Of a stretch of DNA of 35,767 nucleotides, positions 5,061 through 33,311 are shown piece by piece. The notes beneath the pieces were generated by a model. It did no database searches. It saw only the letters and a list, made by a program, of their open reading frames with translations, and was not told the DNA's origin. The stretch lies in assembly GCA_030693045.1 (NCBI GenBank), contig JAUYBU010000398.1, forward strand, positions 1-35,767, given 5' to 3'. Source of the stretch: Bryobacterales bacterium (lineage in GTDB: Bacteria; Acidobacteriota; Terriglobia; Bryobacterales; Bryobacteraceae). Each line of letters starts with the position of its first letter. Positions within the stretch are counted from its first letter, which is position 1. The position numbers were made by a program, and so were the translations under genes.

Positions 5061-5112
5061 TGGTATAACATTGTAAAAAAGTAATACTTGATGGCCAGTG
5101 GTATACTATTGT
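5061..5112 (+). promoter_or_regulatory. Candidate autoregulatory operator of the AbrB/PIN module: two near-identical 14-mers
   Basis: TGGTATAACATTGT (5061-5074) and TGGTATACTATTGT (5099-5112), 12/14 identical, 38 bp apart. The odd palindrome AAGTA-A-TACTT (5079-5089) lies between them. All lie just upstream of the SD/ATG at 5127. Confidence 0.45.
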
Positions 5113-5126
5113 CGGGAGGTACCCAT

Positions 5127-5360
5127 ATGAACCTTATGCACACCCGGGCGACAGTCAAGGGACAGGTTCTCATCCCGGTGGCACTTCGCCGCAAGTACGG
5201 CATCACGAAGGGCACCCGGATATCCATAACTGAAGAGAAGGGCCGCATTGTTCTTCAACCGATTACGCGGGACTTCATCCACAGTCTGATGGGAAGCCTG
5301 AAAGGCACCGGCGCGCTTGAAGAACTGATGGCGGACCGCCGGCGCGAAAGGGATCTCTGA
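5127..5360 (+). CDS. AbrB/MazE-type (SpoVT-AbrB fold) antitoxin
   Basis: MNLMHTRATVKGQVLIPVALRRKYGITKGTRISITEEKGRIVLQPITRDFIHSLMG; GGGAGG SD upstream of ATG 5127. Confidence 0.85.
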   Translation: MNLMHTRATVKGQVLIPVALRRKYGITKGTRISITEEKGRIVLQPITRDFIHSLMGSLKGTGALEELMADRRRERDL

Positions 5361-5765
5361 GTGTCGCCTCCGTTGTTGGTGCTCGATAGCTGGGCCGTGG
5401 TGGCTCTGTTGGAGCAACAAACTGCGGCAGCCACGGTGGCAGAACTATTCGCGGACGCACACGCGAACCGCCGTGTTCTATGGATGACGACAGTCAACCT
5501 CGGCGAAGTCTGGTACATCCTGGCCCGCAGGAAGTCCGAGGAAGTCGCTGATCGAGAGCTAGCCAAGTTGATTGAAATCGGCATTCGCGTCGCCGACGTG
5601 GATTGGGAATTGACGCGGCGGGCCGTGCGCCTGAAGACGAAATACCGTCTCGCTTACGCCGATTGCTTCGCCGCCGCGCTGGCTCAGCAACTGCGGTGCA
5701 AGGTGGTCACGGGCGATCCGGAGTTCCGGCAGTTGGAAAAGGAAGTGAAGGTTCAGTGGCTCTGA
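5361..5765 (+). CDS. PIN-domain toxin (VapC-like)
   Basis: LLVLDSWAVVALLE...TTVNLGEVWYILAR...YRLAYADCFAAALAQQL...VVTGDPEFRQLE; GTG start immediately after the antitoxin stop (TGAGTG). Confidence 0.9.
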   Translation: MSPPLLVLDSWAVVALLEQQTAAATVAELFADAHANRRVLWMTTVNLGEVWYILARRKSEEVADRELAKLIEIGIRVADVDWELTRRAVRLKTKYRLAYADCFAAALAQQLRCKVVTGDPEFRQLEKEVKVQWL

Positions 5766-28629: not shown

Positions 28630-28878
28630 GTGGCGAACCTGACGATCAAGGAAGTCCCTCCAGCCGTGCACGACGATCTGCGACAGTTGGCGCGGGCACA
28701 GGGCAAGAGCCTGAACGCCTACATTTTGTCGGTGCTGGAGGATGACGTGGCGGAGCGCGCCCGGCGTCGCCGCATGCGCGAAACAAGGGAGGAGTTCGAG
28801 AAATTCCTGGTGACTCTTCCGCGGATGAGCGACAGCACGCGACTGATCCGCGAGGATCGCGACCGCCTGAGCCGATGA
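28630..28878 (+). CDS. Ribbon-helix-helix (Arc/MetJ, FitA-like) antitoxin
   Basis: From GTG 28630: VANLTIKEVPPAVHDDLRQLARAQGKSLNAYILSVLEDDVAERARRRRMRETREEFEKFLVTLPRMSDSTRLIREDRDRLSR; immediately upstream of and overlapping the PIN gene. Confidence 0.8.
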   Translation: MANLTIKEVPPAVHDDLRQLARAQGKSLNAYILSVLEDDVAERARRRRMRETREEFEKFLVTLPRMSDSTRLIREDRDRLSR

Positions 28879-29297
28879 GCCGGCCATCGTTTGTCGTCGA
28901 CGCGAGCGTGGCCGCGAAATGGGTACTCCCCGAACCGAGGAGCCAGCAGGCGCGGCGGCTTCTGCGACGGTATCAGGAGGAAGAGATCGATCTGGTGGCC
29001 CCGCACCTGCTCCTGGCGGAGGTGGGCAACGTCCTCTGGAAGAGGGTGCGGAGGCAGGAACTGACGGCCGCGGACGCCCGGATCTGCTACCGCAGGCTAC
29101 TCGACGACAGTCCGATTTTGCTCGACGACCCGAATACGCACACCGCCGCGCTGGAACTGGCATTGGTGCACGGTCGAACCGTGTATGACAGTCTCTACGT
29201 AGCGCTGGCGCTGGAACGGCGCTGCGGCCTGGTCACCGCCGACGAGCGGCTCTACGCCGCGCTTCACCCGGCCTATTCGTGGATTGAACTGCTCTGA
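28875..29297 (+). CDS. PIN-domain toxin (VapC/FitB-like)
   Basis: SFVVDASVAAKWVLPE...LVAPHLLLAEVGNVLWKR...VHGRTVYDSLYVALALERRCGLVTADERLY; ATGA overlap with the antitoxin. Confidence 0.92.
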   Translation: MSRPSFVVDASVAAKWVLPEPRSQQARRLLRRYQEEEIDLVAPHLLLAEVGNVLWKRVRRQELTAADARICYRRLLDDSPILLDDPNTHTAALELALVHGRTVYDSLYVALALERRCGLVTADERLYAALHPAYSWIELL

Positions 29298-32435: not shown

Positions 32436-32655
32436 GAATACTCCTGAGGAAAATTGGGGCTCGACTGTATTATATCGTCTGGAGGCGACGCCTTTCAGCC
32501 GCTCCGGGTTTCGGAAGGCAAGCGAGCCGCGGAATGGCCCGGATGGGGTGGGGCGGCGCGGCGCCGGCGATTGCAGGAGCGGCCTGTCGAGCCGTGCCCC
32601 GGGCGCGGATACGCGTTCCGTTTCGTGTCACCATAGTCATAGCGAGGAGCGCATC

Positions 32656-32922
32656 GTGATCGATGCCAAAAACGCCGTACAGATCGCAAAGCAGCAGGCA
32701 GCCGGCATGCTCGACCAAGGCTCCACCAAGCTGGAGGAGATCGAGAGGGATGTCTATAAGACTCGCGACATCTGGAGCATAACGCTCAGTTTTCCACGAG
32801 ATCTGAATCAGGTGTCGGCAATAGCACGCCTCGGAATGGACCCGCTGCAGTACAAGCGTTTTCTGATTGATGTCGAGACCGGCGACCTGGTTGCAATCAG
32901 GCTGCGTGAAGTAGCCTTCTAA
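32656..32922 (+). CDS. Small (88 aa) PepSY-like protein, candidate partner of the downstream PIN gene
   Basis: From GTG 32656 with GAGGAG SD: VIDAKNAVQIAKQQAAGMLDQGSTKLEEIERDVYKTRDIWSITLSFPRDLNQVSAIARLGMDPLQYKRFLIDVETGDLVAIRLREVAF; the W-x-ITL ... FLIDVETGDLVAIR pattern resembles PepSY. Confidence 0.65.
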   Translation: MIDAKNAVQIAKQQAAGMLDQGSTKLEEIERDVYKTRDIWSITLSFPRDLNQVSAIARLGMDPLQYKRFLIDVETGDLVAIRLREVAF

Positions 32923-33056
32923 TGAGTTCCGTTGACCCCTGGCTTGGCCCGGACAGCCGGGCAGGGCTGCTGATAGACACGAATCTTCTCGTGCTGTTTA
33001 CTGTCGGCACGGTCAACCGCCGGCGCATCGAGAACTTCAAGAGAACGCGTCAATAC
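32922..33056 (+). pseudogene. PIN-domain gene, 3'-truncated
   Basis: MSSVDPWLGPDSRAGLLIDTNLLVLFTVGTVNRRRIENFKRTRQY is a PIN N-terminus (LLIDTNLLVLF). The frame then runs into unrelated sequence and the palindromic repeat. TAATG overlap with the upstream gene. Confidence 0.65.
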
Positions 33057-33143
33057 ATTGGACACGATCAAAACGATTGCCATCCTGCAAGAGCCGGAGA
33101 TGCCGAGTGCTCGTCAGGAAATAGCCGTTCCATGCGGAAAGTA

Positions 33144-33202
33144 CCGCTTGCTGACGCGCGCGGCTCAGTAGGAGTTTCCGAGCCGCGACCGTCAGGAAGC
33201 GG
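33144..33202. repeat. Large imperfect palindrome, Acidobacteria 'ADARGSV / LPDGRGS' intergenic repeat
   Basis: Arms CCGCTTGCTGACGCGCGCGGCTC (33144-33166) and GAGCCGCGACCGTCAGGAAGCGG (33180-33202), 20/23 paired around a 13-nt loop; translates as PLADARGSVGVSEPRPSGSGC (+) and PLPDGRGSETPTEPRASASG (-). Confidence 0.8.
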
Positions 33203-33311
33203 GTGCCCGCACTTGCGAGCACGTGAATTGGAATGAACGGCACTTGGCCGGACAAGGCGCATGGCGGCACACGCGGGTCTGTCCTGGACCTGAATGCCGC
33301 GGGCAACACAC

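Follow-up and report, generated by a model that had tools for sequence, protein, structure and literature searches.

We put at about 60% the probability that the window, by which we mean the whole 35,767-nucleotide contig analysed here (Bryobacterales bacterium, GenBank assembly GCA_030693045.1, contig JAUYBU010000398.1), carries a copy, now decayed, of a mobile module of two genes, and that the module when intact acts in the manner of a type II toxin-antitoxin or immunity pair. The module couples a small PepSY-like protein to a VapC-like PIN-domain protein. This reading draws on the operon and its conservation, the correlated divergence of the two products, their predicted folds and the catalytic residues retained in intact relatives, and also on the patchy spread of the module, its absence from this site in a congener and those loci at which it lies inside anti-phage operons.

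The first gene of the module is intact and occupies positions 32656..32922 of the forward strand, opening with GTG at 32656, running for 88 codons and closing with TAA at 32920-32922. The gene is supported by its open reading frame, by homologues that share its start residue and by an AlphaFold2 model with a pLDDT of 92.7. Direct reading of the sequence places a Shine-Dalgarno-like GAGGAG (32644..32649, forward strand) 6 nt 5' of the GTG, and at the other end the motif TAATG (32920..32924, forward strand), where the stop codon of the small gene and the start codon of the PIN gene share one base; the ATG at 32922 begins the PIN-domain N-terminus LLIDTNLLVLFTVGTVNRRRIENFKRTRQY. The strong Shine-Dalgarno sequence, GTG start, 88-aa reading frame and TAATG overlap claimed in the initial annotation are thus all present at these positions. 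Nor is the pairing a matter of chance, since the nearest intact relative, from the same family (genome G014, locus L010), has the same coupled arrangement: its 159-aa PIN protein, which shares 79% identity with the window PIN across the conserved start, is joined through an ATGA overlap to a preceding protein of 91 aa that has 60% identity with the 88-aa protein.

The second gene survives in the window only in pieces. Homology searches of genomes and tblastn with intact relatives delimited a 5' remnant of 45 codons (32922..33056, forward strand), beyond which the frame continues to 33236 without homology. About 40 codons, the second catalytic residue among them, are absent after codon 45, and next, out of frame, comes a piece of the gene's central part at 33058..33114 of the forward strand (tblastn; the end is approximate and the alignment starts at about 33034), in which KTIAILQEPEMPSAR aligns with KETLTILREPEMPSVR of the L073 PIN at E = 9e-6 and the L070 PIN is matched at E = 8e-5. 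The C-terminal half is missing, and of the four catalytic residues only the first aspartate is retained; the three that are gone include the last two aspartates. Abutting the broken gene at about 33102..33203 is a dispersed repeat, roughly 100 bp long, which a search of the source genome with window positions 33057-33300 located at more than 40 sites; one of its reading frames gives the peptide PLADARGSVGVSEPRPSGSG. The truncation at about 45 aa that had been proposed for the toxin is thereby upheld and refined into a gap of some 40 codons, an out-of-frame remnant and then a repeat. The nuclease of this copy is dead, and its small gene is still open. Measured against relatives, the window small gene has a dN/dS of 0.12 to 0.33, a value that mostly reflects earlier history.

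The pair lies between a PFK gene and an OsmC gene; the draft genome spans 6.48 Mb and contains 64 Pfam PIN matches. In the only other sampled genome of the genus (G001), the aligned PFK- and OsmC-bearing flanks are 22 nt apart, and the window segment 32458..33318 is missing (blastn/tblastn of L121 against the window). This difference represents either a gain in the lineage of the window or a clean loss in the congener.

The pair is real and widespread and is not local to the window. We assembled 70 PIN-anchored loci, 66 from a scan with the PIN alignment (one genome per species) and 4 from a plasmid search, and at 68 of them the PIN gene directly follows the small gene on one strand. At the other two loci the PIN gene either is broken or begins 213 nt from a contig end. 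Offsets between the two genes fall mostly between -20 and +10 nt, short overlaps or gaps being usual among relatives. Record titles place the PIN loci in about a dozen phyla, with assignments that come mostly from metagenome bins and may be wrong in single cases; they name Acidobacteriota, Nitrospira, Nitrospinota, Chloroflexota/SAR202, Latescibacterota, Gemmatimonadota, Alpha- and Gammaproteobacteria, an Electronema, Bacteroidota (Spirosoma), Planctomycetota, Myxococcales and Verrucomicrobia, together with cyanobacterial plasmids. Many of the genomes at loci L020-L062 resemble marine sponge symbionts, judging by bin names only. The reading as a phage-borne module was rejected, neither a phage collection nor viral contigs having yielded a match. 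The distance matrices of the small protein and the PIN protein are correlated (Mantel r = 0.81 over 64 pairs; permutation maximum, 0.20). Most close pairs show dN/dS values well under 1 in both genes, and the small protein generally changes faster than the PIN.

The association also holds when it is approached from the small gene. Within the class to which the window belongs, a small-protein profile matched 31 of 399 genomes, distributed over 17 of 136 genera, and a PIN gene or its remnant lies right downstream at 29 of 30 small-gene-anchored loci; at the thirtieth, a degenerate PIN start can be read downstream. Merging this set with a PIN-anchored search of the same 399 genomes gave 38 loci. 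Both genes are intact at 26 of these; at five, including the window, the small gene is intact and the PIN is broken or lost; both genes are broken at five more; and a PIN fragment stands alone at one. The reverse state, an intact PIN with no small gene, was seen once, in a PIN that begins 213 nt from a contig end. Decay of the toxin before the antitoxin would fit this 5-to-1 excess, a weak excess that is too small for significance. The module is mobile and patchily distributed, as seen in its presence in 31 of 399 genomes, the empty site of the congener and the plasmid copies.

The second protein is about 150-165 aa long across the family and is VapC-like, as the initial annotation had held in assigning it a PIN domain, with the catalytic residues kept in intact relatives. 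Under the Pfam PIN model PF01850 the closest intact relative scores 23.5 bits against a cut-off of 23.6, and 16 of 47 members match at E <= 0.1 (best, 2.9e-9). A model of the intact G014 protein (pLDDT 93.4) found clear structural matches in VapC21, FitB and archaeal VapC-type proteins, including PAE2754; a search by sequence gave no convincing match to a solved structure. Four acidic residues, D12, E65, D114 and D132, are nearly invariant among the intact relatives, and their order and motif suggest that they form the PIN catalytic quartet. PADLOC holds no model for either gene, and NCBIfam no family apart from a single weak VapC match; surveys of defence systems that depend on PADLOC will therefore miss the pair.

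The small protein was harder to place. None of the families in Pfam, NCBIfam or PADLOC matched the 88-aa protein, which bears out the earlier remark that it has no AbrB, RHH or Phd signature, and a check for membership in a known antitoxin family assigned it to none in those three collections. The AlphaFold2 model, built with 52 aligned relatives, has the order helix-strand-strand-helix-strand-strand. Among PDB structures, Foldseek gave its most convincing pairings with two PepSY-type proteins, YpmB (2GU3) and CD1622 (4EXR), at a probability of 1.00, with TM scores of 0.60-0.61 and E-values of 0.13-0.23; ranked by E-value, unrelated enzymes that superpose poorly stand higher than these two. 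The Pfam PepSY model PF03413 leaves the window protein unmatched and gives the G014 protein 16.8 bits against a cut-off of 24; it weakly matches 7 of 52 members (best E, 7e-4), and members scored individually fall below the cut-off. The PepSY-like character first suggested for this protein thus appears to hold at the level of the predicted fold (AlphaFold2, Foldseek) but lies under the Pfam cut-off. No convincing match to a solved structure was found by sequence, and a viral fold library gave weak matches at most. Neither a signal peptide nor a hydrophobic segment was detected, the highest 19-residue hydropathy mean being 1.46. Residues E27, E28, T43 and K67 are invariant.

These properties bear on the most conventional account of the locus, an ordinary VapBC operon with a divergent DNA-binding antitoxin that has escaped recognition. 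Gene order, gene sizes and the overlap all match VapBC, but the predicted fold is a PepSY-like alpha-beta-beta-alpha-beta-beta arrangement, unlike AbrB, RHH, Phd or HTH, and no antitoxin of Pfam, NCBIfam or PADLOC was matched, leaving this account very improbable. In its specific form, with a hidden AbrB, RHH or Phd antitoxin, it was ruled out by the family scans and the predicted fold. An alignment of seven upstream regions revealed no conserved operator ahead of the small gene, and since the small protein also has no DNA-binding domain, autoregulation of the operon is unsupported. Two classical VapBC pairs are present elsewhere in the window, both on the forward strand: an intact AbrB-like antitoxin adjoining a 134-aa PIN toxin at 5088-5765, and, at about 28700-29297, an RHH-type antitoxin reading NLTIKEVPPAVHDDLRQLARAQGKSLNAYILSVLEDD that overlaps a 140-aa PIN toxin.

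Outside the class of the window the association is looser. Among 16 small-gene loci from other classes of the phylum, nine have a PIN (six intact, three broken) and seven, from three lineages, have none; for six of these seven genomes, no PIN of the module's family rises above threshold anywhere. The proposal that the small protein is always linked to a PIN was ruled out by this survey. Four of the PIN-less loci (L159-L162), in genomes of one family, carry small genes with a dN/dS of 0.05-0.07, and at two of the four a coiled-coil/membrane protein is encoded slightly downstream. In two loci of one genus (L167 and L169) the small gene is coupled instead to a small membrane protein with two segments, AINHGDAL...VPYLVSTFSSVGA, which matches no Pfam family and presumably resembles NrtS. 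One of the seven small genes stands alone. Of the six genomes from the family and the genus, five have no PIN of the module's family that passes the threshold at any site. The small protein, then, is not tied to a PIN everywhere, and the strong purifying selection on some PIN-less homologues indicates that it can have another job. The coupled pair that had been suggested thus stands as a conserved operon (68/70 and 29/30 loci), but not for those acidobacterial homologues that lack an adjacent PIN; the initial annotation had named such homologues as evidence against its proposal, and they speak in part against it.

Such homologues could mean that the small protein serves several partners as a general regulatory or ligand-binding domain, and that the PIN is a non-toxic RNA-processing nuclease whose activity or stability it supports. 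The purifying selection on the PIN-less genes (dN/dS 0.05-0.07) and the coupling to a membrane protein in one genus favour this, whereas the sparse, patchy spread and frequent decay of the PIN are unlike those of a needed processing enzyme and the PIN model resembles VapC toxins; on balance we regard this account as improbable. A difference between proteins with and without a PIN lies near the C-terminus. Of 95 aligned proteins accompanied by a PIN or a PIN remnant, 91 retain arginine R84, against one of seven PIN-less proteins (L170); the other six have cysteine (four), histidine (one) or no aligned arginine (one) at this position. This points to R84 as a candidate contact with the PIN, through a correlation that rests on two lineages and two independent losses.

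Another set of loci places the pair in anti-phage operons. In two Gemmatimonadota bins (L046 and L048) it is flanked by HmaB and HmaC, which are the Hma-system methylase and ATPase; at L058 it adjoins HmaB, and at L062 a type IIG enzyme. On Nostoc and Allocoleopsis plasmids a DUF1156 methyltransferase comes after the pair, and two of these plasmids also encode a DUF499 ATPase upstream. At L046, L048, L058, L175 and L176 the pair lies within Hma or DUF499-DUF1156 operons, in two unrelated groups. At other loci most neighbours are housekeeping genes, and Hma and DUF499-DUF1156 core genes are absent around the pair at the window locus.

A 2026 survey (PMC12839542) treats the Hma and DUF499-DUF1156 systems as BREX-related and describes PIN endoRNases as less common auxiliary, or back-up, effectors of BREX and related systems; its text mentions no PepSY-like partner for the PIN. 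The pair might accordingly be a back-up effector of Hma or other BREX-related operons, in which the small protein, as sensor or adapter, would activate the PIN RNase in infection instead of being a classical antitoxin of the addiction type. The positions beside HmaB and HmaC (L046, L048, L058), on the DUF1156/DUF499 plasmids and beside the type IIG enzyme (L062) would all suit such a role, as would the auxiliary PIN effectors of the survey, but the neighbours at other loci are mostly housekeeping genes and those in the window are PFK and OsmC, and we hold this explanation to be possible but rather unlikely. It and a toxin-antitoxin role are not mutually exclusive. A broader possibility, less likely than not, is that a PepSY-like domain was recruited in the cytosol as a nuclease gatekeeper of a new class; the portable PIN and PepSY-like module would serve as a stand-alone toxin-antitoxin in many phyla and as a plug-in effector of Hma or BREX-related defence operons, its small subunit having also been domesticated in some acidobacteria for a task independent of the PIN.

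In the type II toxin-antitoxin or immunity reading that we prefer, the small protein would be translated first, bind the PIN protein and keep its metal-dependent nuclease site closed, with the near-invariant C-terminal arginine R84 possibly contributing to the closure. The PIN would be freed to cut RNA once the small protein was lost or when phage attack gave a signal. Binding, toxicity, neutralisation, the RNA target, the trigger and the part played by R84 are steps that we infer.

As judged from its sequence, the PepSY-like partner of the PIN belongs to no described antitoxin family. None of the open-access journal articles searched named PepSY together with the PIN domain, and none of those naming PepSY together with antitoxins looked relevant, though the pair may have been described elsewhere before. 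Few toxin families are as abundant as the PIN toxins, and a widespread PIN partner with another fold and no DNA-binding domain, at times embedded in anti-phage operons, would, if the proposal is true, bring a novel means of controlling such nucleases.

Several known systems invite comparison. With the Hma and DUF499-centred BREX-related systems the pair shares its position among methyltransferase and ATPase genes at some loci, but it is not a core component of them and is absent from the PADLOC models. With PepSY domain proteins (PF03413) the small protein probably shares a similar alpha+beta fold, and it has weak profile similarity to them; typical members differ from it, the small protein being a single cytosolic domain with no signal peptide or membrane segment. 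The antitoxins treated in the section of Makarova et al. (2009) on PIN-associated antitoxins are RHH, AbrB, PHD, COG2442/DUF433, COG2886, COG2880, COG1753 and MerR, and the families discussed there are DNA-binding or related to DNA-binding folds. In those families too a small gene is coupled to a PIN gene, but the present small-protein family does not figure among them. In organisation the module resembles VapBC and FitAB: an overlapping two-gene operon with the small gene first, a catalytic quartet, a mobile and patchy distribution and a PIN fold nearest to VapC21, FitB and archaeal VapC-type proteins. From these the module differs in having a PepSY-like partner without a DNA-binding domain and a longer PIN protein, of about 150-165 aa.
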